Positions 5,465-64,000 of a stretch of 64,000 nt of DNA are shown in pieces (the stretch's first letter is position 1; each line of letters starts with the position of its first letter). Under the pieces are notes generated by a model that worked only from the letters and a program-made list of their open reading frames with translations, was not told the origin of the DNA and made no database searches. The stretch is taken from the NCBI GenBank assembly GCA_910575005.1, contig CAJTCL010000004.1, positions 124,001 through 188,000 of the forward strand, read 5' to 3'. Source of the stretch: Lachnospiraceae bacterium. GTDB lineage: Bacteria > Bacillota > Clostridia > Lachnospirales > Lachnospiraceae. The translations under genes and the position numbers were made by a program.

Positions 5465-5585
5465 ATGCTTCTCCTCTCTTTTTTATATTTTTTAGGAAGT
5501 TTATCCTATAAAAATCCCATTCCTGTACCAGACCTGCAAGCCATTTGCATTTACTTGTCCATCTAATGGGATCTTCATATACTTA

Positions 5586-5614
5586 ATTTTAGTTTGTTTT
5601 TGTAAAATTTTCAA
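5586..5614 (-). promoter_or_regulatory. Sigma-A-type promoter for the GH30 gene
   Basis: On the minus strand TTGAAA (5609-5614) and TAAAAT (5586-5591) are separated by exactly 17 nt. They lie about 120 nt upstream of the GH30 start codon, between that gene and the palindromic element. Confidence 0.55.
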
Positions 5615-5634
5615 GATATTTTAGTAAATTTTTA

Positions 5635-5810
5635 GTAACAGTTTAGCCATCAGACACATTATGTGTAAATCATGCTTGCATGAATGAACATATAATGTGT
5701 CTGATGAGCGGAGCGCCCATTAAGCCTCAGACAGAAGCTGCATTAGCAGCGAATAGCCTGCTTTGCAGGCGGTCTGTGGCTTGTCTAATGGGCGTGGGCT
5801 AAACTGTTAC
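5635..5810. repeat. 176-bp palindromic, multi-hairpin intergenic element (MITE-like)
   Basis: Perfect 14-bp terminal inverted repeats, GTAACAGTTTAGCC (5635-5648) and its complement (5797-5810), enclose two large nested branches. The first pairs ATCAGACACATTAT (5649-5662) with 5692-5705. The second pairs CGCCCATTA (5714-5722) with 5786-5794 and contains further hairpins (GCTGCATTAGCAGC and GCCTGCTTTGCAGGC). There is no ORF inside. The folding is cloverleaf-like on either strand. It sits between the HSP90/helical operon and the GH30 promoter, so it could also act as a transcriptional insulator. Mobility is inferred from the terminal repeats only. Confidence 0.7.
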
Positions 5811-5816
5811 AAAAAC

Positions 5817-44049: not shown

Positions 44050-44829
44050 TTAAGAAGAAGCATTTAATATTTTATCAATCTCCACCAACAGCTTATCTTT
44101 AACTGCAGGTTTCAGAAAATAGCCTGCTGGCTTTAATTTCAACACTGCCTCAATATTGGCCCGATCATTGATTGCAGTCAGAAAAACCACTGGAATGTCC
44201 TTCATTTCCTCATCTGCACGTATCATTTCCAATGTCATTCTCCCATCGCAAATCGGCATTTCATAGTCCAGCAAAATCAAGTCTGGACGTTTTTTGCCTA
44301 TCGAAGTCATCGCTTGTGCTCCAGAAATGGCCACAGCAATTTCATAATACTCCTCCAACATAGCCTTCATTGTTCGCAGTGTAGTTCCATTATCATCCAC
44401 CACTAAAATTCGCTTTCGGTCAGCCGTCCCCTTTTTCTCTTCTGCGGCATCTTGTTCCACTTTTTCCTTGTCCAAACCAAGCCTTCTGCACACTGCGTCC
44501 ATAATGATAGTATTTTCTACTGGACGGATTAAATTTTCAAACTGCCCATCTTCATAATATTGAAAAAAGGTTTTACTCTCCTCTTTTGTGCCGATCGTCA
44601 ACACTGGAATATTAGAATATTGATCACTTAACATAAAAAAGATGGAAGTATCAATATCATATGCGCCGATCAAACTAATCAACACTAAATCGGGATTGAC
44701 AATTTTTAACATCCCCTCCAAAACACTAGCGTTTTCTGAACAAAGCTGTACATGAAAAAACTGCGCCAAAAAGGTATTAGTCTCCTTTACTACACTATTA
44801 AGCTTTCCTATCAATAATATTTTTTTCAT
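44050..44829 (-). CDS. Response regulator with pseudo-receiver and receiver domains
   Basis: The 259-residue protein contains two receiver folds. Residues 1-120 are receiver-like (MKKILLIGK..., PDLVLISL) but lack the acceptor Asp, so this is a pseudo-receiver. Residues 139-255 are a full receiver with DD (145-146), phospho-acceptor Asp188 in LILLDYEMP, and Lys in GYFLKP. There is no output domain, which suggests a role as phospho-relay or stand-alone modulator. It lies 43 nt downstream of a hybrid histidine kinase and should be its partner. Its second receiver is clearly paralogous to that of the hemerythrin protein at 61060. Confidence 0.88.
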   Translation of the reverse strand: MKKILLIGKLNSVVKETNTFLAQFFHVQLCSENASVLEGMLKIVNPDLVLISLIGAYDIDTSIFFMLSDQYSNIPVLTIGTKEESKTFFQYYEDGQFENLIRPVENTIIMDAVCRRLGLDKEKVEQDAAEEKKGTADRKRILVVDDNGTTLRTMKAMLEEYYEIAVAISGAQAMTSIGKKRPDLILLDYEMPICDGRMTLEMIRADEEMKDIPVVFLTAINDRANIEAVLKLKPAGYFLKPAVKDKLLVEIDKILNASS

Positions 44830-44872
44830 CTTTTCCTCCTCTTTTGCATTTGCTGTGGTTTAAATGAATCAT

Positions 44873-47800
44873 TTATTTTTCCATCTGTCCAATCAGTAAA
44901 TCTGCAAGTCGGTCTGCTTCCTCTGAATCTAAATTTGTCACTGCCTCTGCCAATTTTTCAATATTTTCTGCCATTTTCTCTGGATAGTCATATTCTCGCA
45001 ATTGGCCAACCACCTGGTCTGCCTGATCAATATCCATCTCCTGCATACTAAATCGCACCATTTCCACAAGAGCCTGTAGCACAGAATAATCTGTCACTTC
45101 TTTTCTGGCTACATCTTCTATGCCAAAGACACCTTGTAATTTCTGCTGATAGCTGCGCCACTCCTCTAAAAATGGTGTGGTGACTGACAAAACTACATCT
45201 ATTTTACCATCTCTCGCCGCATATTCCAATATCTTTGCAACTCCCGCCAGCGGCAAAATTCCTATGGTTGCCGCCAAACTTTTCATCGCATGTACTTGAA
45301 TCCGATACTGATCTAACTGTCCAGGCTCTGCAAGCTGCTGATATGCCTGTTCTAAACGATTTGCAGCCGAATTAATCTGAGCATAAAACTCTTTGACAGT
45401 GTACTCCAATAACTCCAAATCTGGTAAATGCATCCAGGCATACTGCCAGTCTAAGCCATCCACCTGCGGAAGCGTCTCTGCAATATCCTCTGGAACCCCC
45501 ATTCCAGTCTGTTGTACCGCTGACTGAGAATCACCTGTTGCAGCTTCTTGCAATAATTCCTGTGGCAACATTCTTTTCATCATATTCTCCAATTTTTCTG
45601 GTACAATCGGCTTTGAAAGAAACTCATCAAACCCTTCGGCAAGATATTTTTCTTTTGCCCCTGATACGGCATTGGCTGTCAATACAACAATTGGCGTATT
45701 CTGACATGGGAAATCAGATAACTCTTTGATATGATGGAGTGTCTCTACACCATCCATCTCAGGCATCATATGATCAAGAAAAATCAAATCAAAATGATTC
45801 TCCTGTACTAATTCTAAACACTCTGCGCCGCCCTCTGCGTCTGTCACCTGAATTTGCGTCTCCTTTAGCAAGTTGCGAAATACTTTGCGATTGACCGCAT
45901 TATCATCCACCACCAAAACTTTGGCATCTGGTGCACAAAATCTTGTATCATAAGTGTAATTTTCTGCAATCTGATGTACACGTGACTCAAAATCTCCGAT
46001 TGGTGTCTGATCAACAATCTTTTGTTCCAGTTCAAAATAAAATTTAGAACCTTTTCCATAAGCGCTCTCAACTTGTAATTTGCTGCCCAAAAGCGCCAAA
46101 AGCTGAATGGTGATACTCATACCAAGTCCAGTACCTTCTATATTACGATTCCGATCTTCCTCAATCCGCTCAAACTCTGCAGACAATTTTGGCAAATCCT
46201 CCTCTTTGATACCAATACCTGTATCTTCCACTTCAAATTCAAGTACTACGATCTCTTCTGTTTTACGGCTCTTCACACGCAGACATACCGTTCCCTCATG
46301 TGTATATTTCACTGCATTGGTAAGAATATTTGTCAATACCTGGCGAATCCGCACATCATCTCCATAGAGTCTGGAAGGAATCTCATGATCCACTTCCACA
46401 ACAAACTCAATCTCTTTGTCTTTCACCCGCTGTAATGTCATGTTTGCCAAATCATGAATCATACTGCTGACATCATACTCCACTGGAACGATCTCCATTT
46501 TCCCAGAATCAATCTTGGAGAAATCTAAGATATCATTGATCAAAGACAGCAGTGTCTGGCCCGCCATATAAATATCCATCGCATAGTCTTTTATGTTTTG
46601 CTCTTTTGATTCCCGCAAAATCATCTCATCCATGCCCAACACGGCGTTAATCGGCGTACGGATTTCATGGGACATACGTGCCAAAAACATACCCTTTGCC
46701 TCATTTGCTGCCAACGCTTCATGCCTTGCTGCATCAGCCTCTTGTTTCGCCTGTGCCAACTGGATATTTTGCTGTTCTGCCGCTTTTACTTTCTCCGCTA
46801 AAAGAGATGCATTTTCTTCCGCACTTGCCCGATACTCTTTGGAAATCTGCAAAGTATGCAAAGCGGCCATCATAATACTAAATACTGTCATACTATACTG
46901 CCCTGCAATATTGCCGCGTGGATTTTGGAAGAATACACTCATAATCATATTTGCGATTCCTCCGGCCAACAATATCAACATGGACAAAACCGCTGGCAAT
47001 GTCTGATAGCGTTTGTTATTGTAATCATATTGCACTAGGCTTACAATAGCTGTGACACACACTACCCCGACTCCCATTGCAGAAATATTTATCATTTCTT
47101 CCAGACTTCGTATCTTTGATATCTGCAATAAAATCTGCACGGCTGCATTGCCGCTGACCACCCACAACAGCACGGAAAAACGATGAGGATATACTGTATG
47201 TAGATTTCTATCAAAATATAATGTTAAAAACAACGGCAGAAGCAGCACCAAATACTCCTGCATTTCATATGCTTCCTGGACATTATAAAAGATATTCAGA
47301 GTATCTGTCCCAATAAAACAATAAATGCCTGCTGCCAATCCGGTGAGCCCTAAAAATACTTCTCCTCTTGCTGGCTGACGCGTATACTGCCGTATGATCG
47401 CAAGTATAAACATAATAATTGCCATGAACACAATCAACAGACAGCAGCCAATATCTGCAATATTGTTATTAACCACTCCAATTACTACGGTATCACGCGT
47501 TTCAATCTTAATATCACCAAGAGCTGCCGCTGCATTCTCAGAAGGTGATAACAATTCAATCCACAATTCCCCCTCTGTAAACACATTGGGAAGATTTACA
47601 AAGTTATTATTATCCCCAGGCGATTGACCGAATTCTTTTTCAAATCCATACTCATAAATCACTTTACCATCCAAAACCACACGAACCATACTGTTTGTGG
47701 AAGTAAAATTCAGGGTCAAACCTGCATAGTCTTCTGGCAATACATTTTGAAAAACAATTAGTTCTAATACTTTGCTCTCTCCCGTATATGGCAAAGTTAC

Positions 47801-48058
47801 TTTCTTATATTTCTCTTCTGCCAGCTCCTTTTCAATTAGCTCTCTCAATTTCTCATGATCTCTTAATTCTGTCTCTGATAACTTTGCATGATCCACAGAA
47901 ACCATAATCCAGTCCTCATTAAAATAATACTCAATCTGATCAGGAAGCAGAGGGATACTTTCATTTTCCTCTTTTCTTTCAAACTGAAATAGTGCAATCA
48001 CCATAAAAACAAGAATAAAGAAAATACAAACACCTGCTAATTTTCGTAAATTTTTCAT
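44873..48058 (-). CDS. Hybrid sensor histidine kinase (7TM, HisKA, HATPase, REC, HPt)
   Basis: The 1061-residue protein has a N-terminal membrane helix (7-24), an extracytoplasmic beta-rich sensor (about 30-190), seven membrane helices (about 197-405, in the style of 7TMR-DISM), a coiled coil (410-455), HisKA with His464 in MSHEIRTP, HATPase with the G boxes DTGIGI and EGTGLGMSI, a receiver with acceptor Asp in LIFLDHMMPEMDG, and a C-terminal HPt with His in VHAMKSLAATIG. The full phosphorelay is therefore in one protein. The SD is AGGAG. It is followed by a double receiver gene. The DISM-type sensor often binds carbohydrates or small molecules; the ligand is unknown. Confidence 0.92.
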   Translation of the reverse strand: MKNLRKLAGVCIFFILVFMVIALFQFERKEENESIPLLPDQIEYYFNEDWIMVSVDHAKLSETELRDHEKLRELIEKELAEEKYKKVTLPYTGESKVLELIVFQNVLPEDYAGLTLNFTSTNSMVRVVLDGKVIYEYGFEKEFGQSPGDNNNFVNLPNVFTEGELWIELLSPSENAAAALGDIKIETRDTVVIGVVNNNIADIGCCLLIVFMAIIMFILAIIRQYTRQPARGEVFLGLTGLAAGIYCFIGTDTLNIFYNVQEAYEMQEYLVLLLPLFLTLYFDRNLHTVYPHRFSVLLWVVSGNAAVQILLQISKIRSLEEMINISAMGVGVVCVTAIVSLVQYDYNNKRYQTLPAVLSMLILLAGGIANMIMSVFFQNPRGNIAGQYSMTVFSIMMAALHTLQISKEYRASAEENASLLAEKVKAAEQQNIQLAQAKQEADAARHEALAANEAKGMFLARMSHEIRTPINAVLGMDEMILRESKEQNIKDYAMDIYMAGQTLLSLINDILDFSKIDSGKMEIVPVEYDVSSMIHDLANMTLQRVKDKEIEFVVEVDHEIPSRLYGDDVRIRQVLTNILTNAVKYTHEGTVCLRVKSRKTEEIVVLEFEVEDTGIGIKEEDLPKLSAEFERIEEDRNRNIEGTGLGMSITIQLLALLGSKLQVESAYGKGSKFYFELEQKIVDQTPIGDFESRVHQIAENYTYDTRFCAPDAKVLVVDDNAVNRKVFRNLLKETQIQVTDAEGGAECLELVQENHFDLIFLDHMMPEMDGVETLHHIKELSDFPCQNTPIVVLTANAVSGAKEKYLAEGFDEFLSKPIVPEKLENMMKRMLPQELLQEAATGDSQSAVQQTGMGVPEDIAETLPQVDGLDWQYAWMHLPDLELLEYTVKEFYAQINSAANRLEQAYQQLAEPGQLDQYRIQVHAMKSLAATIGILPLAGVAKILEYAARDGKIDVVLSVTTPFLEEWRSYQQKLQGVFGIEDVARKEVTDYSVLQALVEMVRFSMQEMDIDQADQVVGQLREYDYPEKMAENIEKLAEAVTNLDSEEADRLADLLIGQMEK

Positions 48059-48170
48059 AATTAACTCCTACTTAATCTCATAGTTCCACTTATCTCTCAC
48101 ACGTACATTTTCCTATCAATTTCTACTTATGTATATTTTTCTTTGATAATCACATATATTCTTAATATTA

Positions 48171-51100
48171 TCATAATTCCTTGGATTCCTCAACATTTCC
48201 TGCCGTTTTCCCACGCTCTAAAAATTCTCTTGCTTTTTCAATAATATCTTCTTCTGTATATCTTTTTATCTTTCCAACTTCTTCCCACTCATCATGTATC
48301 CTTTGGTCCTTTTCCGTTGTAAACTGCTGGGTGACAAATCGGAGGCTGTCATCCTCTGGATTATACTGATCAAAATCTTGCATCTCACATAATATGCCAA
48401 AAGATTCCTCTGGTATATGGAGTATGTAACTATGATCAAAATTGATGCCAGACAAAATAACTGTATCAGAATCTACCAGATACCAACTAAGATTATCAGA
48501 TTCACCACCGACAATATCATCTCCAAAGGCGTCTGTTTCCACGAGTTTTTCTGATTCTATCGTATATCTGGCTGCCTTCTTTTCAAAACAAATCAGAAAT
48601 CCTGAGGAATCTGGAAGAAAAAACAGGCTCAGCGGTGTCTCTTCAAAAGAAAGTGATTGTATAATATTCCCTTCGCCATCCTTAAGGATAACCGCATGTT
48701 CCTCTAAGGCAGCGGCATAGCGCCAATCCGCACTGACTGCTTCCCGATCACCTGAAAACATTGCCACTGTTTCTCCCTCCTGCCTTTTTTGCGTAGACGA
48801 AGCCCCTCTCACGCTTCCTCCACTGCAAACAGTATACCTTTCATCATATACCTCATATTGATATTTGATAATCTGATTCTCTGCATTATGACCTTCCTCT
48901 TGCCGCGGAAGAATATAGTAATCTGTACCATAAACATAAAATGATTTTAATTTAGTCGGAAAATATTCATACCCATCTACCTCGCCATTTTGACGAGAAA
49001 AATACAATAAATCTCCATTTTCCAACACAAGCTCCATCTCATTTTCCAAAACACGGATATTTATCACTGGTTCGCCAGTATCACAAAAATTCAACACAGT
49101 TCCATCCGCAAGATTCAAAAAATCACATCTGTTTCCATAGACAACACATAAAACTTCTTTCCCATCATATGTGGTATTCAATGCAAATAAATCTCCACCA
49201 GACTGATATTCCCTGTTTTCTTTCCAAACCTGCCTGCAGCTTTGCGCATCAAACAGTTCCATCTCTATGGACATCTTTTCAGAAGTAAAATGATAAACCT
49301 TTCCTGTTGTGATCATGTTCAATCCTTTTAAATTATGGATTAGAAATAACTGGCCATCATCCGTAAAATGCAATAATGTGTTTATTATGCTAGGAGAACT
49401 TTCATTCTCAAACTTTGAAAGCAGATTCCATTTGCCGCTTTTCAAATCATACAATAAAAAACGATAGGAATATTTCTCACTAGCGGCATTCTCTTGTAAT
49501 TCATCTTTCTCTTTTACAACAGTACATGTGATCTGGTTGTTATCTGGAGAAATCACAATATTCGCATCTTTAAACACAAGATCCTTCTCCTCTTCCAGTT
49601 CCAATGCTATCTTCTCCAACACAGCTCCTGTCTTCGCATCCAACACATACAATTTCTTGGGATTTGCCACTACGACCAGCGACTGATCCTCAGAAACTGC
49701 AGTCCCTTCTACAAGTTCATTCTCTTCCCCCTGAAATTCCCACATTATACTTTCTTTTTCGTAGTCAAAACAGGTAACTGCGCGAGAACTGACGGCCAGA
49801 ATCCCGCTCTGATTTTCCAGCAGACAGTTCTCATCAAACCCTTCCACGAAATCAGAAGTTTCTATCGTCTTTTTTTCCTGAAAAGTCTCTGTGTCCCATA
49901 TGTGAATCAAAGTGCTCGCTGCGGCAAACAAGTATCTCCCCTTGCTGTCTGTAAAAATTTTTCCAAGAACTTTTTTTCCCTCCTCCAGATGGAAAATCCC
50001 CTCCGGACTAACAGTTTTTTCAACATTGGATGGCAGCATATACAATCCCAGGTTTTCCGACAGCAAATGATAAAGCTGTGGAAGAAAAATCTTGGAATCC
50101 TGCAAAAGCTCATGGGCTTTCAGACATTGTTCGATAGATGCAAACCGGTCATTTTGCTCAAAACTCTTTTTGGCCTGTTCAAGCAGATACCGTGCCTGAT
50201 TTTCCAGGGCTTTCCTTTGCTGCTTAGTAATCTCGAGTGTCTGTTCGGCAATTTGCTGCGATTTTATCGCTGCATACCCTGAAAAAAGCGTCAACATCAG
50301 AAATCCTAGACAGATTACTACTGCATTACGTTTCCAGCAGTACAATTTATCCCTCTGCTTTAGGTCATCATACGTCATATTTAAAATTGGTGCTGCTATT
50401 TTCAGTTTCACATCACTTTGTATCTTCTTACGGATTTCCTTCAGATTATTTCCATGCGCATTGGCGGCCAGAAGAGTTTCTGCATTTATTCCATTTTTTA
50501 TCATAATGTCAGGATAAACGTGTTTCGGCTCCCCTTCTACCACTACCGCCAGCACATGGGAAGAAGGATGAAATTCCAGGAATGTTTTAATCTCTTGCGT
50601 AACCCAATGGGATTCTTTCGTTTCCTTAGAACAAAGCACAATCAGCCACTTTGCATGTTTCAAAGCGTCTCGGATTCTTTCTCCAAAATCCGCACAGGAG
50701 GCGAGCTCCCCCTCATCCAGAAAAACCCGACGTATAGGGTGGCTGCGCATAAATACGCCTCTTCCATACCGCTCCAAGGCATTTCTTAATTCCTTGGCTG
50801 CAAAAGTGTCCACCGGTTCATGCTTATAACAGATAAACGCATCATATTCCATGCCAGACAATGGATTTCGGAAAGGTTCCAGCAACGCCAAAAACTCTTT
50901 TACATCCGCAAGCATTTCATCTGCGCTTTGATAGCGGTCTTGCACCTGGTTCGCCAACGCCTTTGCCAGAATCTTCTGCATCCGCTCCACAAGATGGCGG
51001 GGACAGTGAGTTTTCCTGACAGAAAACCTTGGCAGATATCGTCCAGTAGTATTTGTATATAACTCCCTGGCAGTAAACCTGTGGCCGCTCAGCAATAGAA

Positions 51101-51911
51101 GCAGCAAACAGCCAATACTATAGATATCCGCCCCTGGGCCTAGACGAAGCGTGCCATCGTTTTCATAAAGGATCTCCACAGCGGAAAATCCTGGGGTAGT
51201 ATATATAACGCGGTCTTGTATCACATCACTGAGCCCATCTTCCCCCCGTTTCCTGGAAATACCAAAATCCAACAGGGAAACCATGCCGCTGTTATCATCC
51301 AGTCGTCCCTTCACAAAGATATTCCCATCCTGGATGTCCAGATGCAGATAGCCTGCATTATGCACTTCCCGCACCGCATAAAGCACCTGCTCAATAATGC
51401 GAAATGCAATATCTGCTGTCAGGTGTTTATTTTCTCTTAAACAAGTTTTTAAAGACTGCCCCTTATCAGACAGTGATTCCATGATTGAAATAACATTATG
51501 TACTGGATAAAAGTTCTGTCCTCCATCTGTGGAAATTTCCAGTTCCCGAAATGTCTCCAAAACTGGGGTCAGGCGAAACCCTGTGCTGTATATCTGTCCA
51601 GTGATTTTACTTTCCGCAAGCTGATGTTCTTTAATCTGAGACAGGTATTGAACTGCTTTCGGATTTGCATCGTCTGAGACAATCTCACCATAATCATTTC
51701 TGGTGAATACATACTCAGGCGACACTGGATAACATTCTTTCAAAACATACAAAAAATAACCTGCAGTGCTGCCTGTTTTCTCATCGGGCAGATGTCTTCT
51801 CACTGGATAAATAATGCTGCCCCCACCTTCTCCAATCGGTGTGCCGACAATCTCATAGAGAATTCCTCCGGCCACCCGTAACTGTGTTCCTTTTTCTAAA
51901 ATTATTCTCAT
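48171..51911 (-). CDS. Ser/Thr kinase-TIR-TM-beta-propeller signalling protein
   Basis: The 1246-residue protein has an eukaryotic-type kinase (about 20-345): Gly-rich IGEGGGS, Lys58 in VLKE, catalytic loop HLDIQDGN (Asp192, Asn197), DFG (215-217) and an APE-like segment. A TIR domain follows (355-480: YDAFICYKHEPVD, RRVFLDEGEL, and CSKETKESHWVTQE with the putative NADase Glu440). One membrane helix (529-548) with basic residues on its N-side places kinase and TIR in the cytosol. Behind it are a coiled coil (550-595) and a C-terminal beta-propeller-like domain (about 625-1200) that would be outside. The layout resembles M. tuberculosis PknD (kinase-TM-propeller sensor) with a TIR inserted between kinase and membrane. 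The SD is AGGAAG. Divergent from the helical protein at 52061. Confidence 0.88.
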   Translation of the reverse strand: MRIILEKGTQLRVAGGILYEIVGTPIGEGGGSIIYPVRRHLPDEKTGSTAGYFLYVLKECYPVSPEYVFTRNDYGEIVSDDANPKAVQYLSQIKEHQLAESKITGQIYSTGFRLTPVLETFRELEISTDGGQNFYPVHNVISIMESLSDKGQSLKTCLRENKHLTADIAFRIIEQVLYAVREVHNAGYLHLDIQDGNIFVKGRLDDNSGMVSLLDFGISRKRGEDGLSDVIQDRVIYTTPGFSAVEILYENDGTLRLGPGADIYSIGCLLLLLLSGHRFTARELYTNTTGRYLPRFSVRKTHCPRHLVERMQKILAKALANQVQDRYQSADEMLADVKEFLALLEPFRNPLSGMEYDAFICYKHEPVDTFAAKELRNALERYGRGVFMRSHPIRRVFLDEGELASCADFGERIRDALKHAKWLIVLCSKETKESHWVTQEIKTFLEFHPSSHVLAVVVEGEPKHVYPDIMIKNGINAETLLAANAHGNNLKEIRKKIQSDVKLKIAAPILNMTYDDLKQRDKLYCWKRNAVVICLGFLMLTLFSGYAAIKSQQIAEQTLEITKQQRKALENQARYLLEQAKKSFEQNDRFASIEQCLKAHELLQDSKIFLPQLYHLLSENLGLYMLPSNVEKTVSPEGIFHLEEGKKVLGKIFTDSKGRYLFAAASTLIHIWDTETFQEKKTIETSDFVEGFDENCLLENQSGILAVSSRAVTCFDYEKESIMWEFQGEENELVEGTAVSEDQSLVVVANPKKLYVLDAKTGAVLEKIALELEEEKDLVFKDANIVISPDNNQITCTVVKEKDELQENAASEKYSYRFLLYDLKSGKWNLLSKFENESSPSIINTLLHFTDDGQLFLIHNLKGLNMITTGKVYHFTSEKMSIEMELFDAQSCRQVWKENREYQSGGDLFALNTTYDGKEVLCVVYGNRCDFLNLADGTVLNFCDTGEPVINIRVLENEMELVLENGDLLYFSRQNGEVDGYEYFPTKLKSFYVYGTDYYILPRQEEGHNAENQIIKYQYEVYDERYTVCSGGSVRGASSTQKRQEGETVAMFSGDREAVSADWRYAAALEEHAVILKDGEGNIIQSLSFEETPLSLFFLPDSSGFLICFEKKAARYTIESEKLVETDAFGDDIVGGESDNLSWYLVDSDTVILSGINFDHSYILHIPEESFGILCEMQDFDQYNPEDDSLRFVTQQFTTEKDQRIHDEWEEVGKIKRYTEEDIIEKAREFLERGKTAGNVEESKEL

Positions 51912-51939
51912 TTTCTTCCTATCTTATCTATATTTGTGT

Positions 51940-51945
51940 TATAAT
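51940..51945 (+). promoter_or_regulatory. Possible -10 element for the 52061 gene
   Basis: TATAAT lies in the 149-nt divergent gap, 116 nt before the start codon. No good -35 is visible at 17 nt. Confidence 0.3.
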
Positions 51946-52060
51946 TTATTGTATTTATTCAGAATTCATAAAAGGCAAGACATGCTTATTTGATTCTGAA
52001 TGGCTACGATTTATCTTAATATTTTTAAATCTATATTTCAATCAAAACAGGAGGTTTATT

Positions 52061-53209
52061 ATGTTAAATCCATCGGATTACACCTCGCCGCAAAATATTT
52101 GGAATGGCATTTCTCACTATGCGCAAGATCACTTTGATAAATATCAGGATCATCTTCCCGCATCTTTTACAGATGATGATCTGTTGAAAGCTTTAAAAAA
52201 AAGCGCTGACAAACGCCTTTTGCCCAAAGAATATGATACTTTCCGCAAAGCCGTCACCGCCCTCAGAAATGGAACCGCCGCAACGCTGAAACATGAAAAC
52301 TTATATCGGCTCTGTTTCGTGCTGAATCTGGATTCAGATAGCGAAGCACAAAGTCTGTTCTCATATTATCTGCATTGCAATGAACTGTCTGCCCGTTCCC
52401 TGGATGAATTTATCATCCTCTCATCCTTGAAGCTTCAACTGAGTTGGGAAGAAACCTGCAAAATCCGCAGAAAGTATCATGAACAAATCCAGGAACAGCC
52501 AATTTCCCCTTCCAATCTCTGTGAAGGGCAGACAGCAAAAATTTATCAGCAGATCATCCATGATAAAATCCAGACCATAAACGATCTTTGGGACTTTCTG
52601 AATGCTCCAGAAAACATGAATTTTTTTGCAACGACCAGAAATACGCAATATTTGGCACTTTTTGATGATGTGGAGCTTGAGATTTTATACAATGGGAATT
52701 ACGAGCAAATCATCCGGCTTGTCACCAACTATGGAAATCTTGAAAAGGAACCTATCTTGGAATATTACCATTCCCTGTTTGGCCTGCAGTGGGGAGATAA
52801 CGACCGGTTGACAGATAAGGAAATCTCCTCTTTAAGCTCCATCTTTGAAAATGTATTCATGAACTATAATAATTTCCTGCTGTTAGTCCAGCGCAAACGG
52901 CTGACAGATATTTCCTCTGGCACCTTCATGCTGAGCCTTCTAAAAAAGCTGCTGACGGAAGACTCCGAAAAGGACAATGATTTTTACATGAATTTTTTGG
53001 AGGAAGATGAATTTATAGAAATCTGCGATGATATTCGGATTGCTTTCGGCTTCCCAACATTAAATCCAGAATGTGACAATTTTGACCGGCTGCTTTTGGA
53101 CGTCTATCAAGAAACGCTAAAAGAACATTCCGATCTATCAAACTGTGATTTTCAGAATGTGTACATCCACTCCTTGAGAAACTATCTTCGTCTGATTGCA
53201 AATCTCTAG
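52061..53209 (+). CDS. Helical protein of unknown function, divergent from the kinase-TIR gene
   Basis: The 382-residue protein starts at ATG 52061 (GGAGG 7 nt upstream; the frame is open further upstream but runs into the kinase gene). It is predicted alpha-helical, acidic and cytosolic. The N-terminal third (FTDDDLLKALKKSADKRLLP, then FRKAVTALRNG, then LNLDSDSEAQSLFSYYLHC) has the spacing of a small all-helical domain that I cannot name; the C-terminal part is TPR-like without a clear repeat. Its position makes it a likely regulator, adaptor or substrate of the kinase-TIR protein (inference). It ends at a strong terminator. Confidence 0.7.
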   Translation: MLNPSDYTSPQNIWNGISHYAQDHFDKYQDHLPASFTDDDLLKALKKSADKRLLPKEYDTFRKAVTALRNGTAATLKHENLYRLCFVLNLDSDSEAQSLFSYYLHCNELSARSLDEFIILSSLKLQLSWEETCKIRRKYHEQIQEQPISPSNLCEGQTAKIYQQIIHDKIQTINDLWDFLNAPENMNFFATTRNTQYLALFDDVELEILYNGNYEQIIRLVTNYGNLEKEPILEYYHSLFGLQWGDNDRLTDKEISSLSSIFENVFMNYNNFLLLVQRKRLTDISSGTFMLSLLKKLLTEDSEKDNDFYMNFLEEDEFIEICDDIRIAFGFPTLNPECDNFDRLLLDVYQETLKEHSDLSNCDFQNVYIHSLRNYLRLIANL

Positions 53210-53256
53210 TGTATGACATGGCTGATAATAAAGCAGAATGAATTTTTAGAAAACAA

Positions 53257-53306
53257 CAGGACGGGAAAACAGAAAAATTTCCTCCACGTTTTCCCGCCCT
53301 GCTTTT
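53257..53306. terminator. Strong bidirectional terminator
   Basis: CAGGACGGGAAAAC pairs with GTTTTCCCGCCCTG (one mismatch) and is followed by CTTTTTG on the plus strand and TTGTTTTC on the minus strand. It separates the 52061 gene from the convergent lipoprotein gene. Confidence 0.75.
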
Positions 53307-53393
53307 TGAAGTTGAAAGACACTCTGATATTACGAAGATAATGAAATATCAAACGGATTTTAACCGCTTTCGTAATACTCACACTTATCCTCT

Positions 53394-54539
53394 TCACCCA
53401 CTGGACAAGCGAACACTGTTGAATGCTGTGTCAACCTCCTTCGTCATGCCTTGGGCGATTTCTTCACTTGCTGTATATATTACCATAAATGTGGGCGTCA
53501 TGTCTTCCTCTGCTGTTTCAAAAATCACATACATAAACTTTATCAGGCTTTCTCCATTTCTGGATGCCTGAATTCCTATTTCATATCCATCATATCCACT
53601 AATTCGGATTACTTCATGATGTATCACACTGACATCTGTAATTCCTTGGCTCTCAAGCTCCTCTTTCCACAGATTTTCTACATATGTCTGATCAGACATC
53701 AACTGATAGGAGCCTTCTGTAAACCTTAGTTGAAACGAAGAACCGTCGGCGCGGGAAAATACAGGAGATTTTTCAGCATTATCTTCCACAGCATATCCAT
53801 CCGGCAATTCTATCACAAGGGGATCGTAAAAGACATAATTCTTAGTAGTGTGAAGGGGACTAACAGATGATCTAGACTTAAAATAAAATATACGCTGCCA
53901 ATCCGATTCACTCTTACTCATGTCTGTCCTTAAACTTACAGATTCCAAACACGCCTCAAAATCAGACAAATGCTCTGTATCGCTCTCTAATCCTTTATAA
54001 TTAATACAGACAACTGTTCCTTCCGTGCCAACCTTCTCATATATGCAATAGGATTCCTCCACCAATGGCTTCCCATAAACAACTTCCTTCTTCCGGTCTT
54101 TTATTACCTTATAGCCGCCAATCTCTGTCTCTTCATAAGAAACCACTTCCTTAAATTCAGAGTCTTCCATGATACTGAAGATTTCCTTGGTATCGGCAAT
54201 GAGATTCTCTTTGTTTACATCTGCATTGGAAGTAATAGTCTTATAATTTGTAAGAAAACGAATATTAGGCCTATATTCTGCCCCTTCACTCTCACGATCC
54301 ATTGCATAATAGATGGGGTGATTGGGGTATTTTTCTTTTACCACGTATTCCTCTGGCAACGTGATCGTAATCGGTCCATAGGTCACAATCGGCCCATCCA
54401 TTTTCTTAGATGTGTCTTTTGTATCTGCACAATTGGAAGCCGTAGTCTGGGAACTTGAAGAATCGCTGTTTCCACAACCAGTACACAACAGCAACAACGC
54501 TGTGATGATTAAGATTGCACATTTTTTATTTTTTTTCAT
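53394..54539 (-). CDS. Lipoprotein of unknown function
   Basis: The 381-residue protein has a lipoprotein signal peptide (LLLLCTGC, modified Cys22) followed by a Ser-rich linker. Two similar halves are visible: IVTYGPITITLPEEYVVKE... (about 50-200) and YVFYDPLVIELPDGYAVEDN... (about 235-375). Both have a PG/VE-strand pattern, so this is a tandem duplication of one beta-rich domain (possibly related to DUF domains with the motif ITLPEGY). The SD is AGGGAGG. It should sit on the outer face of the membrane. Ligand unknown. It lies 72 nt downstream of a cytosolic helical protein gene on the same strand. Confidence 0.8.
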   Translation of the reverse strand: MKKNKKCAILIITALLLLCTGCGNSDSSSSQTTASNCADTKDTSKKMDGPIVTYGPITITLPEEYVVKEKYPNHPIYYAMDRESEGAEYRPNIRFLTNYKTITSNADVNKENLIADTKEIFSIMEDSEFKEVVSYEETEIGGYKVIKDRKKEVVYGKPLVEESYCIYEKVGTEGTVVCINYKGLESDTEHLSDFEACLESVSLRTDMSKSESDWQRIFYFKSRSSVSPLHTTKNYVFYDPLVIELPDGYAVEDNAEKSPVFSRADGSSFQLRFTEGSYQLMSDQTYVENLWKEELESQGITDVSVIHHEVIRISGYDGYEIGIQASRNGESLIKFMYVIFETAEEDMTPTFMVIYTASEEIAQGMTKEVDTAFNSVRLSSG

Positions 54540-54611
54540 TTCATTTCCTCCCTTTATCCACGGTCCAATAACTATAAATTCAGATAATTCTCTGTACTTA
54601 ATGGTATTATA

Positions 54612-55400
54612 CTATTTTCGAGATGCCATATCAAGGGAGTTCATCTCTTCTACCAAAGGGCTATAACCAATTTTTAAAGCCTTCTTTATGTATTCATTGT
54701 ATTCTTCGTCCGAATTTGCTGTACGGCTCAATGCCTCCCATACTGCTGCATTCCACGGACTGATTTCTTTCGCAATAAATAATAACTCTTTTTTCTGTTC
54801 GTTTCTAAAGCCCATTTCCTCCTTTATATTGCATAAAATACTATCCAAAATTTTACAATATAAAACGATAAAATAAGTATAATTATCCTTAGTCTTAGGC
54901 AAATCTTTTAATGCGCTAAACTCATGTAATAATAGATACGCTTCCTTCTTATTCTGACAACAAATTTGTTTTCCAATCATATCATTTTTCATCGAAACCA
55001 CATATGAAACATAAGGATCCGCAATTACTTTAGCCTTAACAACATCCCCAAGCTCCAATAGATTTTCGCAAGTAAAAATAATTGGCGAGATATCATCTAC
55101 GATTGTTCGGAATTCAGAAAAATTTTCAACATAAGATTCCGTTAAATTTGTCAATACATTTTCTATCAATGCATCTATTTTGTGTCTTTCAATACCTGAT
55201 TTTTTTAAATAGACAATTTTTTCCATAACATAATTCCAAGCAGTTTGATAATTTCCGAATGGTCTTATACATGTTTGCAAATACACATTTATATACTCTT
55301 CATCAAGTAATGAATTGGATTGATCCATAGATTTCTCCACATCAATAAATTTATCCATACTATTGTTTTTCACTTTATTACGTTTAAAAATTTTAAACAT
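54612..55400 (-). CDS. Helical cytosolic protein of unknown function
   Basis: The 262-residue protein begins with a basic MFKIFKRNKVKNN and is then acidic and alpha-helical; the last part (ISPWNAAVWEALSRTANSDE, then YIKKALKIGYSP) looks like a TPR unit. SD GGGAGA, 7 nt from the ATG. It lies upstream of the lipoprotein gene and may be co-transcribed. I do not recognise the family. The GC content is lower than for neighbours, and its codons are A/T-rich, which may suggest separate acquisition. Confidence 0.7.
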   Translation of the reverse strand: MFKIFKRNKVKNNSMDKFIDVEKSMDQSNSLLDEEYINVYLQTCIRPFGNYQTAWNYVMEKIVYLKKSGIERHKIDALIENVLTNLTESYVENFSEFRTIVDDISPIIFTCENLLELGDVVKAKVIADPYVSYVVSMKNDMIGKQICCQNKKEAYLLLHEFSALKDLPKTKDNYTYFIVLYCKILDSILCNIKEEMGFRNEQKKELLFIAKEISPWNAAVWEALSRTANSDEEYNEYIKKALKIGYSPLVEEMNSLDMASRK

Positions 55401-55484
55401 TTGTTTTCTCCCATCGACTCTACATTACTTTTCATCCCTTTTCTAATAAATTTAAACGTTTTGAATTGCTATTTTCAGGGGGGG

Positions 55485-55496
55485 TCTGAATAGTTA
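55485..55496. repeat. Single GTAAC-type repeat end
   Basis: CTGAATAGTTAC is the same end sequence found at 19508-19519, but no matching left end is visible within 200 nt. It is probably a degenerate or truncated copy. Confidence 0.35.
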
Positions 55497-55503
55497 CACT
55501 TAA

Positions 55504-55542
55504 ATCAGGCATCCTGATATGTCATATATCAGAATGCCTGAT
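55504..55542 (-). terminator. Terminator after the CHAP gene
   Basis: ATCAGGCATTCTGATAT and its complement (one mismatch) form a 17-bp stem, 23 nt after the stop. The minus-strand tail is TTTAAG, a weak T-run. Confidence 0.6.
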
Positions 55543-55565
55543 CCTTTTATACCTATATCACAAAA

Positions 55566-57863
55566 TCATTTCTTCACTTTGATTTTCAGGACTTTACTCC
55601 AGTTTCCGTATACCTTTTTTCCTTTCGTCGTTTTATAGGCGCGGACCTTGTAATAGTATATCTTCTTCGCAGTCAGGCCCTTATTCGTGTAGGAAGTCTT
55701 CTTTGTAGATGTTATTTTCTTATAACCGTATGACTTTGATCTGCTGCGATAGATTTGATAGCCGGAAGCTCCCTTGACTTTGGAAATCTTAATCTGCACA
55801 GTTCTTTTCTTTGTTGTCAATTTGATGGTTGGCGCCTTCGGCTTTGTAACTTTTGTCAATTTTGGCACGGTTCTTTGTGCTTCCAATACCTTTCCGCAGA
55901 CACTGCAGTGACTTCCCTTCGTCAATCCGGTAGAGGATGTGGTAGCCGCAACCGCTTTATCTATTACAACAGTATGCCCCAATGCAGTTGTCGTCTTTGT
56001 CTCTGTCTCACCACAGTTCTCGCAGGTGTGCTGCCGCTTTCCGGCATTTACACAGTCTGCCTCCTGGATCGTCTTCCAGCCGCCCCAATGATGGCCGCAG
56101 GTAATATCGAAGGTCACGGCTAATATTTCACCACTCTCGTTATTTATATATGCAAGACTGTAACGGCCAGGCTTTTCCATAGTATAAGTGCCGTTCTGGT
56201 AATCCGCCGCGCCTTCTGTCTTAGAACCCTCTGTAAAAGAGACAAAATCTGTAGTTTGATAACGGTACAGTGTCCATTCGTTCGGAGTAATATTGGGCTT
56301 ACCCCCCTTTTCAAACAATGTCTTCTCGTCAATCGTCTCCCCTGTCTTCATCGGGATCTGTAGGCCGCCTGGAAGTTTGAATGGAATGAAAATACCAACA
56401 TCCATTCCACTGTCATCATATGCTGCAACACTAATCGCATGCTCATCACCCACTAATTTGTCACGATACAATGGAATTTCTACCTCACCGGCAAAAGATT
56501 TGCTTCCAATATCTTTTTCAGTAGATCCTGCATCACTATCCGCAAAACTTTCGTCAGTCTCTGGGTTATAACAGCCCAAGACTGTGAACCGAAGGTGAGT
56601 TATGTATCTATCATCTTCTGCCTCTACATATATAACAATGCTTTTCTCTTTTATTTCTCTTATCTCTGCCTTGATTGTCGGATGAGTATTTGACACATTG
56701 ACATTAACGGTGCATTTTATTTTGTCGCTGTAGGCAGAAGTAATGGTAAGTGTCGTTGTTCCCTGTGCAACTGCTGTAAGCTTGCCGTCTTTTACAGTGG
56801 CAATCGCTGGATCTGCAACGAAATAATTTAAGTCCCTATAATGACTGTCCGCTGGCTCCACAGTCGCAGTGATCGGGCATGTCTCTCCCACTTCCAGAAA
56901 ATAATTAGCTTTATCATCTACACGCTTAGGCATCTTATTTTCAATTTCATAAATACTGAACACCTGCGCCTCAGACTGATTCCATTCAAAAATCTGAATA
57001 TTTGTTCCAGCCGCCGCACTGCCAGTGGCACAGTCCAGACACTTATCTGGCGCATTTTTGGGGACAAGGCGCCTGGCAGCCTGATTCCCATAAATATACC
57101 ATTTCTGAGCACCATTATCCGTTCCCCATTTTTGACAAAGCCCTACATTTGTTCCATTGGCAGTTCCTGCCCCTGAAACATCAAGCGCCCTGCCGTCATA
57201 GAGACTGGTAATAATATAGGAACCGTCGCTCTGCCGTTCAAAATGCCAATGCTGTTTTGCAGCTCCTTTGTTTTCTGAGGACAGTTCCACATTATCACCA
57301 TTTACCGTAACATGCTTCCAAACATCTGTACGGATAATGATAGCGTCAAAGGACTGCCCATAATCCAGATAACCACTTGGTATTGTTGGAGAGGTATCTC
57401 CCAGATAGATATATCCAATCATTGTCAAAAGATTAGATGAGTAATACTTTGTCTGGCCGTAAGCATTCTCCCAACCTTCATGGTATGCCCCATTGTAGCC
57501 GCCTTCCTGGATATAAATCTGATCTCCTCTGACTTCTGTAACATATGCAACATGCCCATATCCGCTTGGTCCGCCGCTCCATACCGCAATGGATTTCGCC
57601 CGTGGTACGGTTGAAACCGTATATCCAGCGTTTCGGGCAGAATCATACCATGTATGAGCATTCCCCCAGCCTGGAAGCTGAATGCCAGTATTGGCATAGG
57701 CAAGCCGCCAAGCCGTATAGGTACAGTTGCCATCACCTCCGCCATAAGGATTGGCATAAACCTTCACTGGCGTGGTAAATATCCCAAATACCAACACAAG
57801 CGCCAACCAAATGGCTGTCCATCTGTGAAATCTGCTATTGTTCAATTTCATTTTCTTTTTCAT
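55566..57863 (-). CDS. Secreted CHAP hydrolase with ricin-B lectin, Big_2 and Fn3 domains
   Basis: The 765-residue protein starts at ATG 57863 (GGAGGAG upstream). It has a signal peptide (1-37, ending VYA), a CHAP domain (about 38-160; Cys47 in GNCTYTAW, His104 in GYGHVAYV, Glu120), a ricin-type trefoil lectin (about 170-315, with the QxW repeats QHWHF, QKWYI), a Big_2 domain (320-395), an Ig-like domain (400-510), a beta-rich region, one Cys-rich repeat (CGHHWGGW, CENCGETETK) and a Fn3 domain at the C-terminus (about 680-765). CHAP domains cleave peptidoglycan peptides or amide bonds. The lectin may bind glycans on its own wall or on other bacteria. The Cys repeat is related to those in the LRR protein (21797). 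Confidence 0.9.
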   Translation of the reverse strand: MKKKMKLNNSRFHRWTAIWLALVLVFGIFTTPVKVYANPYGGGDGNCTYTAWRLAYANTGIQLPGWGNAHTWYDSARNAGYTVSTVPRAKSIAVWSGGPSGYGHVAYVTEVRGDQIYIQEGGYNGAYHEGWENAYGQTKYYSSNLLTMIGYIYLGDTSPTIPSGYLDYGQSFDAIIIRTDVWKHVTVNGDNVELSSENKGAAKQHWHFERQSDGSYIITSLYDGRALDVSGAGTANGTNVGLCQKWGTDNGAQKWYIYGNQAARRLVPKNAPDKCLDCATGSAAAGTNIQIFEWNQSEAQVFSIYEIENKMPKRVDDKANYFLEVGETCPITATVEPADSHYRDLNYFVADPAIATVKDGKLTAVAQGTTTLTITSAYSDKIKCTVNVNVSNTHPTIKAEIREIKEKSIVIYVEAEDDRYITHLRFTVLGCYNPETDESFADSDAGSTEKDIGSKSFAGEVEIPLYRDKLVGDEHAISVAAYDDSGMDVGIFIPFKLPGGLQIPMKTGETIDEKTLFEKGGKPNITPNEWTLYRYQTTDFVSFTEGSKTEGAADYQNGTYTMEKPGRYSLAYINNESGEILAVTFDITCGHHWGGWKTIQEADCVNAGKRQHTCENCGETETKTTTALGHTVVIDKAVAATTSSTGLTKGSHCSVCGKVLEAQRTVPKLTKVTKPKAPTIKLTTKKRTVQIKISKVKGASGYQIYRSRSKSYGYKKITSTKKTSYTNKGLTAKKIYYYKVRAYKTTKGKKVYGNWSKVLKIKVKK

Positions 57864-57923
57864 TCTAAACTCCTCCTTCCTTTGATAAACCTGCAAGTGT
57901 ATTTTTTTGTAATCTTCCTGTCT

Positions 57924-59012
57924 TTAGTTCCACTTAATAGAATAACATCCTGATGAACTTGATGGGAAAATCTCTAAATAATAGGTACCCGCTTTTAATT
58001 TTTTCTTGAACTGCTTTTTGCCGACGGGTAAGCTGTTACTGGCCATCTGTTTCCCTTTACTGTCTTTGATTGCATAGGAAAATCCATTTTTATTGGTGCT
58101 GGCGTTAAATGTCAGCTTAACCGTCTGCGTTTTTTTCAGCGTCATTTTGTACCAACGGCTCTTTTTTTCTTTTAATATAAAAAGCCCTTTCTCCGTTTTT
58201 TTCTGTTTTAGGCTGACTGCCTTTTTCTTTGTTGTATTTTTCTTGTCGGCAGCGCTTTCAAATGTATAACGAATTTTATAGACAGCATTTGTGTCAACCT
58301 TGACATAATAAGTTCCTCTATTTATTCCATAATAAGAGACAGTTCCCATCCCCTGTGCTAAGCTTTTCTTCTTACTGTTTGTAAATTTAGTACTAATGCC
58401 ATCCTCGTATTTGCTGATCGTCTTAGTTTCTACCTTGATACAACCTGAAGAAGGCACAATAATTTTAAAATATGCTGGTTTCTCATACAGACCACTTGCA
58501 CCTACCCATTTTCCTTTGGAAAGCGTCCCTGCATTGCCAACAGTGATTGACGTCTCATATGCCTTTATATTTAAGGTTGCCTGCACTTCCGATGTACTTA
58601 CATGCATGTAGTAGGTACCTGGCGTCTCGACATAAGCGCTTATTGTCCTTGGTGGAAACCCGACACCAATAAAATCTTCCTGTGACTTTGGATCTGGACT
58701 TTTTGAAAAATTCACGCGCAAGTACCCTTCGAAAGCATCTGTAGTCGCCTCAAGACATACTTTACCCGCTTGGGAAACAGAAACAGGAACGGTAAGTGTC
58801 TGATCGGCCGTGACCTCAAATTGATATGACTTAGCCCCGCTTGTGCTGCCAACCTTTAGCATTGGCGGGGTAATGGTTGTCTGTGCATACGCCACCTTTC
58901 CAGCTCCCATACACAGCATGAGCAGCATTACCATTCCCGCCAGTTTTAACATTATTTTCTTTGTTCCTTTGATCGTTTTTTCCTTTTTTATTTGCTCACA
59001 TTTCATATCCAT
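57924..59012 (-). CDS. Secreted PPC-like beta-sandwich protein (larger paralogue)
   Basis: The 362-residue protein has a signal peptide (about 1-43, ending AYA) after a basic start. The mature part shows about three repeats with the pattern YFKIIVPSSGCIKVET, GTYYVKVDT and RWYKMTLKKTQTVKLTF, GTYYLEIFPSSSSG. This is the outline of bacterial pre-peptidase C-terminal (PPC)-type beta-sandwich domains. The gene directly follows its paralogue at 59048 after a 35-nt gap, so both arose by duplication and are probably co-transcribed. Function unknown; surface or protease accessory role is possible. Confidence 0.7.
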   Translation of the reverse strand: MDMKCEQIKKEKTIKGTKKIMLKLAGMVMLLMLCMGAGKVAYAQTTITPPMLKVGSTSGAKSYQFEVTADQTLTVPVSVSQAGKVCLEATTDAFEGYLRVNFSKSPDPKSQEDFIGVGFPPRTISAYVETPGTYYMHVSTSEVQATLNIKAYETSITVGNAGTLSKGKWVGASGLYEKPAYFKIIVPSSGCIKVETKTISKYEDGISTKFTNSKKKSLAQGMGTVSYYGINRGTYYVKVDTNAVYKIRYTFESAADKKNTTKKKAVSLKQKKTEKGLFILKEKKSRWYKMTLKKTQTVKLTFNASTNKNGFSYAIKDSKGKQMASNSLPVGKKQFKKKLKAGTYYLEIFPSSSSGCYSIKWN

Positions 59013-59047
59013 AACCTATCTTTCCCGCTTCGTTCCATCTGTTATTT

Positions 59048-59893
59048 TCATTTTATGGTATAATAACCGCTGCCCAAAGCAAATGTCCGCAGATAATAAG
59101 TTCCTTTTGGAAGCGTATATGTTATGGTTTTTTTACCTTCTACATCAAACCCATAAGTCGAATTTTTAGAAAGTATCTTTCCTTTTGTATTGACCTGTCT
59201 GTAATCCTTTCCCTTTTTCGTCCAAATCTGTACTGTCATTTCTTCATAATCACCACCAATAATTTTCGAATCACATACCAATACAACTTTTGTCTTTTTG
59301 TTTAGCTGGAATTTGTAGTAATTCTGATAATTATCATCAAACAACAAATTTTTTATCGCAGTGCCTTTTTTTATTGTGGCAGCCTTTTCAATCGTTTGGC
59401 CTGCTTTGCTTACTTTTGGCACAGGTGTAAACGTATAACGAAGCTTATAAGTTACATCCCCCGTTACTGCCAGATAATAGGTTCCCTTCTTTACTGCCCA
59501 GGAAAACTTTTGATTACTCTCCTCCATACGATAACCTGCAAGATCCTTCTTTTTTGCATTCAAAAGTTTTACATACAAGCCATCTGGATCGTCTTCTTCT
59601 GGATCGTTACACTCAAGATATTCCTGCCAGCCAGGAAGTGGCGATTGCTTTACGTCTACCATAATGTAACCCTGCTTTGGAATCTGGATCTTATAATATT
59701 GCGTATCATACAATCTCAATGCTTCCTTTTTTCCGTCATTATCTTCATCCTGGCATACCCCGCCTTTTCCAGATATCCATTTCTTATTTTTCATGGTCTT
59801 AGCTCCGGCAGCGAATGTTGTCATGCCCAATACTATAGTACATAACAAGACCATCATACATCCTATCACTAATCTCTTTTTCATCTCAATCAT
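59048..59893 (-). CDS. Secreted PPC-like beta-sandwich protein (smaller paralogue)
   Basis: The 281-residue protein has a signal peptide (1-28, ending TFAA). Two PPC-type repeats follow: YYKIQIPKQGYIMVDV with GTYYLAVTGDVTYKLRYTF, and YYKFQLNKKTKVVLVC with GTYYLRTFALGSGYY. It is clearly related to the next gene (57924), including the YxxRYTF block between repeats. ATG 59893 has GGAAGAG upstream; ATG 59884 is a weaker alternative. Divergent from an XRE regulator at 60135. Confidence 0.7.
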   Translation of the reverse strand: MIEMKKRLVIGCMMVLLCTIVLGMTTFAAGAKTMKNKKWISGKGGVCQDEDNDGKKEALRLYDTQYYKIQIPKQGYIMVDVKQSPLPGWQEYLECNDPEEDDPDGLYVKLLNAKKKDLAGYRMEESNQKFSWAVKKGTYYLAVTGDVTYKLRYTFTPVPKVSKAGQTIEKAATIKKGTAIKNLLFDDNYQNYYKFQLNKKTKVVLVCDSKIIGGDYEEMTVQIWTKKGKDYRQVNTKGKILSKNSTYGFDVEGKKTITYTLPKGTYYLRTFALGSGYYTIK

Positions 59894-63067: not shown

Positions 63068-63469
63068 TTAATTCATTTTATTTCTAATTTCTTCAATCAA
63101 AGAAAGGTCTGCTGGAAGCCACCTAACAGAATCCAGCTCCTCTTTCCTTAACCATTTAGCTGCCTGTGCTTCCTTCAAAATTAGATCACCTGTTACAACC
63201 TCACATAGAAAACAATCCATTGAGAGGTGAAAATCTGGATAGTCATACTCAATAGTAGTAAGCAAATCATATATGGCAATTTCTGTGTCCAGTTCTTCCT
63301 GAATTTCACGCCTGAGTGCTTGTTTCGGCGTCTCATCCTTCTCAATCTTACCGCCTGGAAATTCCCATTGCCCTTTAAAATCCCCATAACCTCTCGCAGT
63401 AGCATATACTTTTGTTATATCTTTCACAGAATCGCATATGATTGCTGCTGCAACATGCACCTTTTTCAT
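63068..63469 (-). CDS. NUDIX hydrolase (MutT-like)
   Basis: The 133-residue protein has a NUDIX box, Gly40-x5-Glu46-x7-REIQEE (54-59), and the MutT-type surroundings GYGDFKGQWEFPGG and DFHLSMDCFLCEV. MutT-like enzymes remove oxidised dNTPs (8-oxo-dGTP) or other NTP derivatives. Its start overlaps the stop of the upstream DUF2075 gene in ATGA, so they are translationally coupled. The pairing of a nucleotide pyrophosphohydrolase with a DUF2075 helicase suggests a joint nucleic-acid or nucleotide-related function. Confidence 0.9.
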   Translation of the reverse strand: MKKVHVAAAIICDSVKDITKVYATARGYGDFKGQWEFPGGKIEKDETPKQALRREIQEELDTEIAIYDLLTTIEYDYPDFHLSMDCFLCEVVTGDLILKEAQAAKWLRKEELDSVRWLPADLSLIEEIRNKMN

Positions 63470-64000
63470 AAGCTTTCAAATCCCATTGACTCGAGAACAT
63501 CATACGTTTTGTCAAATTCCTTTCTTGGCGGTACAAAAATTACTATGCCGTCTCTGCCCCTTGTGAGCAATACCCGATATGTATTTTTTCTATATTGCTC
63601 TGCCATCCCTTTTGGAGAATATTCACGATGATCGAATTTTGATTTTAACTCCCAGTCTGTACCATTCCACAGAAAATCTTTTTCCCAACATACAATTGGC
63701 AGATCTATTTCTAGTCCTTGACAACCAAATTCTGTAACTGGTTTTATCAATGCACAACATGATAAGGAATCATTCACAGGAGCATTAAACCACCTTGCTG
63801 GAAATGTCCGTGTCTGTTTTGTATTATCATATGTATTATCTACGCCATATTTTGGAAGTACAAATGATTGTGAAGATGCAAGCAATCCATATCTCTTTTC
63901 CTTATCACCTTGATAATGTTCTCTACAAAATTTTTTTGCTCGCTCTATATCTCGCGTAATATATACACCATAGAGTTGTTTACAATCTTTATAAAGTTTT
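63466..64000 (-). CDS. DUF2075 (Schlafen-group-3-type helicase) protein, 5' part outside window
   Basis: The frame is open to the right edge, with at least 177 codons present and no start. The C-terminal sequence (KKFCREHYQGDKEKRYGLLA, DVVWFNAP-like RWFNAPVNDSLSCC, TEFGCQGLEID, RKNTYRVLLTRGRDGIVIF) matches the end of DUF2075 proteins, SF1-type helicases now grouped with Schlafen-type enzymes. Motif VI is TYRVLLTRGRDG. The N-terminal Walker motifs must lie outside. Coupled to a NUDIX gene downstream by a 4-nt overlap. Such helicases are often found in defence-related islands (family knowledge), but no restriction gene is seen here. Confidence 0.8.
   Translation of the reverse strand, partial: KLYKDCKQLYGVYITRDIERAKKFCREHYQGDKEKRYGLLASSQSFVLPKYGVDNTYDNTKQTRTFPARWFNAPVNDSLSCCALIKPVTEFGCQGLEIDLPIVCWEKDFLWNGTDWELKSKFDHREYSPKGMAEQYRKNTYRVLLTRGRDGIVIFVPPRKEFDKTYDVLESMGFESL

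Follow-up and report, generated by a model that had tools for sequence, protein, structure and literature searches.

In a 64,000-nucleotide stretch from the genome of a gut-type Lachnospiraceae bacterium (GenBank assembly GCA_910575005.1, contig CAJTCL010000004.1, positions 124,001 to 188,000; hereafter the window), two divergent genes encode a kinase-TIR protein, which joins a protein kinase, a TIR domain, a transmembrane (TM) helix and a beta-propeller in one chain, and a helical partner protein. We read the two genes as a membrane signalling module made up of a sensor kinase, a dedicated regulator-like partner and an added TIR output, and put the probability of this reading at about 0.5. 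The features are collected in Table 1; genomes and loci are cited by our working labels (G and L numbers).

Table 1. Features of the kinase-TIR module in the window
Feature	Position	Strand	Basis or remark
Kinase-TIR-TM-propeller protein, 1246 aa	48171..51911	-	ORF (open reading frame), Pfam, comparison with 10 other distinct kinase-TIR proteins
Protein kinase domain, residues 1-345	50877..51911	-	PF00069 E 3.7e-18, match at 143-334
TIR domain, residues ~355-510	50382..50849	-	PF08937 E 3.3e-10, PF13676 E 7.6e-10, match at 359-465
E440 codon (WxxxE glutamate)	50592..50594	-	position verified
Single membrane helix, residues 529-550	50262..50327	-	hydropathy peak; inside model helix 514-585
Beta-propeller, residues 634-1019	48855..50012	-
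Beta-rich stretch beyond the propeller	up to ~residue 1192 (48336)		fold not resolved in the analysis
Divergent intergenic region, 149 bp	51912..52060	.	sequence
Helical partner, 382 aa, kinase-linked helical superfamily member	52061..53209	+	A5 alignment of 13
XRE/lambda-repressor-like N-terminal part of the partner, residues 9-111	52085..52393	+
Lipoprotein-like neighbour, 381 aa	53394..54539	-	no Pfam match; module membership uncertain

Layout and conservation of the kinase-TIR protein

An initial annotation of this DNA had described a complete kinase core, a TIR domain with an NADase-type glutamate, one membrane helix and a propeller, and all of these are present. The kinase carries K58, E100, H190-L191-D192, N197 and D215FG (positions verified except for E100), and K58, D192, N197 and D215 are invariant in 9/9 rows of alignment A6 and 6/6 rows of alignment A2. 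Leucine replaces the arginine of the HRD motif (HLD), making the kinase one of the non-RD type. The TIR domain, which shows an alpha/beta structure in the predicted model and is best matched among Pfam TIR models by ThsB_TIR, has W436 and E440 in its WxxxE motif. The equivalent of E440 is kept in 11/11 distinct kinase-TIR proteins, the window's included, and the kinase residues are likewise invariant across the 11 that were aligned (a twelfth, L129, was left out of the alignment), so there is no tendency among them to lose the TIR glutamate or the kinase lysine or aspartate. The propeller resembles WD40/BamB folds in structure comparison and probably lies outside the cell; the charge rule pointed that way for 7/10 kinase-TIR and 39/40 kinase-less proteins, and cysteine content was uninformative.

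Much of this protein also occurs without a kinase. Residues ~354-529, with part of the propeller in many matches, are common to kinase-less TIR-TM-propeller proteins, which were found in 35/299 family genomes at 1e-10, with more in the order. Clostridial proteins of this kind align with ours in the TIR, the juxtamembrane segment to ~529, the TM helix and the propeller; unlike ours, they have no kinase and often lie near a DHH-DHHA1 gene. Both W and E of the motif are kept in 54/54 kinase-less TIR reads covering it, a count that includes overlapping reads of one gene and sets aside one cut fragment without the motif columns. Because these parts are shared and the motif is kept, the kinase-TIR protein looks, from sequence comparison, like a common TIR-membrane-propeller protein preceded by a kinase. 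Since the catalytic glutamate and tryptophan are retained wherever a TIR read extends across them, catalysis is favoured, and the TIR is probably a catalytic output added to a kinase receptor.

The kinase-less genes adjoin a gene for a DHH-DHHA1 phosphoesterase-like protein (Pfam), for example in L063-L067 (L064:1272-2807 and 4462-7494). Full-length DHH matches were found in 24/35 family genomes with a kinase-less TIR (in 20/24 no more than 5 kb away on a shared contig), in 4/10 TIR genomes from the order and phylum, in 2/14 genomes without a match to the window protein and in 0/6 kinase-TIR genomes. This arrangement suggests that a TIR product may be formed and broken down as a nucleotide signal; our literature search found nothing joining TIR and DHH terms.

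The fusion itself is rare and its distribution patchy. While 52 of the 299 family genomes match the window protein at 1e-10, only six carry the kinase-TIR fusion (G000, G183, G136, G167, G202 and G025). In the samples from the order (344 genomes) and the phylum (348 genomes), each including our own, matches at 1e-20 outside the source genome reach the TIR part only.

PknD-type receptors have an N-terminal Ser/Thr kinase, one membrane helix and a C-terminal propeller. The window protein is alike in all three, but differs by the TIR between kinase and membrane helix, an order that had rightly been called unusual, as well as by its WD40/BamB-like propeller and its linked helical partner. It differs from Thoeris ThsB in being a membrane receptor with a fused kinase, and no ThsA-like gene was found among the five neighbours scanned with Pfam (44050-57896). 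Kinase and TIR also share one chain in the Kinase TLRs and Kinase TIRs of choanoflagellates; the Kinase TLRs are membrane receptors with the kinase between TM helix and TIR, whereas our protein has its TIR flanked by the kinase on one side and the TM helix on the other (PMC6040629). These proteins are eukaryotic, and the likeness is one of layout. In bacterial STAND and conflict systems, kinase and TIR are alternative effector domains that belong, in the accessible portions of three papers, to MoxR/vWA, STAND or death-domain systems, whereas the window has both in one membrane chain, in Clostridia (PMC7159879, PMC8195603, PMC10907252). A literature search judged by titles and abstract openings, which left most subscription papers uncovered, returned no bacterial kinase-TIR-TM-propeller protein and no kinase-helical pair. 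The parts are known; the combination appears to be new.

The helical partner and its link to kinases

By profile comparison the partner falls within a kinase-linked helical superfamily, as a divergent member. It is homologous to the superfamily profile A7 (hhalign 97.9%, E 3.8e-13, columns 62-348), against which an unrelated control scored 0.3% (one control), and A7 finds the partner in its own genome at E 7.5e-9. Strong scores were obtained with this broader profile only: direct comparison with helB (507/532/527 aa) was negative (0.3%), and with the three helA proteins weak (42%, E 2.6e-4). The N-terminal part resembles XRE/lambda-repressor domains at a modest Z, a weak fold match, and the best PDB sequence match of the A7 profile is 3omt (E 0.041). 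No scanned member of the superfamily reached a curated cut-off in Pfam or NCBIfam or had a match in PADLOC; among short members, one was scanned with each, L096 giving no Pfam match and L204 no PADLOC match.

The genomic link to kinases is strong. The A7 profile matches 98/392 order genomes at 1e-5; taking one best match from each genome other than our own gave 97 regions, many of them cut by contig ends, in which the ORF was recovered in 94 and not in three. A kinase was the next gene in 55/94 regions, versus 5/188 for control genes taken from these regions at a distance of at least three genes (Fisher p 5.6e-27). Long members had a kinase within three genes in 28/31 regions and as the next gene in 15/31. 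Among the 63 short members (within L133-L227), the next gene was a kinase in 40, and these pairs were divergent in 31 cases, on the same strand in seven and convergent in two. A separate search of 200 family genomes with three superfamily proteins gave 14 matches in 13 genomes, 12 of them with a kinase as the next gene; of the other two, L090 lies at a contig edge and L092 has none.

This link extends to the fusion. All six kinase-TIR genes of the family sample have a superfamily gene in the same locus, adjoining in five and separated by two genes in G167; four of these genomes carry the partner itself and two a longer cousin. The partner occurs in 4/299 family genomes, every one with a kinase-TIR, so the adjacent-gene count proposed in the initial annotation points to a conserved neighbourhood. 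A scan of genome contigs with the partner found 12 loci, three of them the contigs of G136, G183 and G167, or 13 with the window. Nine of the 13 have a kinase-TIR in the same stretch (the window, L044, L045, L046, L047, L050, L051, L053 and L054), always on the opposite strand and with no more than two genes between. In the other four, the kinase-TIR lies on another contig (L049), is represented by a C-terminal match only (L052) or was not found in a whole-genome check (L043 and L048). Partner and kinase-TIR thus go together in the family sample but not in those last two genomes. The partner gene is conserved, but it is not one-off: it belongs to a large helical superfamily, linked to kinases, whose N-terminal part is XRE-like.

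In the signalling module that we propose, the propeller would sense a ligand or the state of the envelope, likely from outside, and the single helix would carry the signal inward to the TIR and the Ser/Thr kinase, both predicted to be cytosolic. The XRE-like partner, encoded divergently, would be phosphorylated by this kinase and would serve as a dedicated, presumably DNA-binding regulator, acting at the divergent locus itself or at another promoter, or as an adaptor restraining the kinase. With the receptor on, the TIR would cleave NAD+ or make an NAD-derived messenger, and we hypothesize that phosphorylation controls it. A stricter version of the adaptor role, compatible with the other readings, makes the partner an adaptor or pseudosubstrate keeping the kinase switched off, with a helix-turn-helix (HTH) fold that would be a relic. 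The partner is acidic and its fold match weak, and D59, F61, R62 and K63, invariant in 13/13 sequences (A5), could form a protein-binding surface. However, short superfamily members (mostly ~145 aa) comprise little beyond the HTH-like part, and the prevalence of divergent pairs among them is what regulators often show; we therefore consider this version rather doubtful. The intergenic region contains imperfect inverted repeats only and no clear operator, and promoter and repeat scans of the DNA were of little use (18 promoter-like matches versus 14.5 expected; seven terminator-like versus 3.6).

Swapped C-termini and a possible role in defence

The kinase is not confined to TIR fusions. In a tree of 38 kinase domains, one clade (support 98/97) unites the 11 kinase-TIR kinases, which group together weakly (66/80), with 11 kinases that have a helical neighbour and other C-termini. 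The latter include NACHT (L056), NB-ARC (L088, shown as L076 in the tree, and L093, with TPR), Big_2 (L058, L061 and L085) and a sub-threshold Sel1 (L055). In a scan of a further eight partnered kinases, outside the tree sample, NACHT or NB-ARC passed the cut-off in four (L140, L157, L170 and L186), NPCBM in one (L189) and nothing else in L149, L155 and L190. These NLR-like Clostridial kinases, in which NACHT or NB-ARC fusions adjoin a helical XRE-like gene, have TPR in L093, L140 and L170. Among 16 inspected kinases that had been retrieved through kinase similarity alone, a helical neighbour was present in 10/10 inside the clade and 2/6 outside it; the outside count was 0/6 with the first hidden Markov models and rose to 2/6 with A7. 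For kinase-only family genomes, 10/11 were inspected (G279 was left out).

A broader reading, which we offer tentatively, is that Clostridia possess a receptor core of a Hanks kinase and a dedicated XRE-like helical partner with swapped immune-type outputs, the TIR-TM-propeller in the window and NB-ARC or NACHT, frequently together with TPR, among its relatives. The kinase-TIR protein would then be a bacterial counterpart of kinase-TLRs, an outside sensor that uses phosphorylation to switch an NADase, the partner being its switchable brake or transcription arm. That TIR and STAND modules replace one another within a single kinase clade is expected of immune-like receptors, yet it is not proof of defence.

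The initial annotation had named defence as one possibility besides signalling, and the corresponding alternative is an abortive-infection or immune receptor that detects phage or envelope attack, whereupon NAD+ loss caused by the TIR would kill or arrest the cell; the partner would act as inhibitor. The NADase-type glutamate, the NACHT and NB-ARC fusions in the same clade and in half of the eight further kinases, and the patchy distribution of the fusion would all fit. Candidate defence genes lie nearby as well. At the window edge (63.1-64.0 kb; 63071-63999 for the two together), a Nudix protein matching PDC-S07 (E 2.6e-46) adjoins part of a Schlafen-type helicase that matches PDC-S41 (E 7e-41); in the G183 locus (L038, identical to L045), a Schlafen-type helicase split into pieces occurs along with a phage-type integrase, and a fragment in L049 matches a type IIG restriction enzyme (E 2.4e-18). 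These genes lend some support to a defence setting. However, those in the window are ~10 kb from the module, and the scan covered ten hand-picked neighbours, unsystematically. Nor do the searches run show a copy of the fusion in mobile elements: viral contigs held no kinase-TIR or partner relatives, and plasmid and phage matches (among the 23 of 27 listed) reached TIR or kinase parts only, at no more than 21% of the query. On these grounds a mobile-element origin was dropped. PADLOC matches of the window protein, among the 25 of 40 listed, were through the kinase only; those to the phage-defence kinase PD-T4-6 were confined to residues 143-360, with none beyond the kinase. Closer neighbours in relatives are often of secreted type. 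On balance, the defence receptor seems unlikely, if a good deal less so than the envelope sensor considered below. What had been observed in this DNA is confirmed, and its interpretation is partly supported.

Neighbouring genes and an envelope alternative

Genes close to the module are often secreted-type or lipoprotein-like (judged by eye, with CHAP matches in the window and L047). Together with the PknD-like layout, they are what a cell-envelope housekeeping sensor would be expected to show, one in which the propeller and secreted neighbours watch the wall and the TIR is an assembly scaffold, not an enzyme. The catalytic glutamate and tryptophan, conserved as they are, argue against a scaffold, and we judge this alternative improbable. 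The lipoprotein-like product encoded just beyond the partner has a relative, 34% identical, in the partner-bearing locus L043. Further on (55566-59893) lie a CHAP/ricin-lectin/Big_2 protein and two secreted-type proteins, relatives of one of which adjoin the kinase-TIR in L047 (by eye).

Other neighbours recur to varying degrees. A conserved small protein of 127-159 aa and no known family, which we call small157, sits beside the partner in 8/13 partner loci (L038:3433-3906, L043, L044, L046, L049, L050, L051 and L054); it was not found in our own genome in a search that had no positive control. PP2C and VWA genes lie near the module in L038, where a kinase cut by the contig end, VWA and PP2C stand in a row just upstream (L038:1-2569), a row that we take to be TerY-P-like. 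The triad was rejected as part of the module, being beside it in G183 only and not general. Beyond the partner, L043 (10001-21066) encodes a relative of small157, a DUF6273-bearing kinase, a PP2C, a lipoprotein-like protein and an ATPase of the FtsK/SpoIIIE type, possibly a type VII secretion cluster. A link to type VII secretion was set aside, as this ATPase was seen in L043 only and no EssC match in our own genome passed the family cut-off. Elsewhere, the window encodes an HSP90/HATPase-type protein with weak PADLOC TmtA matches (7037-8848) and a macro-PAS protein (19544-20476).

For the Clostridia, the helical superfamily matters beyond this locus: because it is common in the order and the members scanned have no curated-family match, it gives a starting point for finding what these kinases act on. 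If the module works as proposed, kinase control of a TIR NADase within one bacterial membrane chain would provide a simple system for phosphorylation gating of TIR catalysis.
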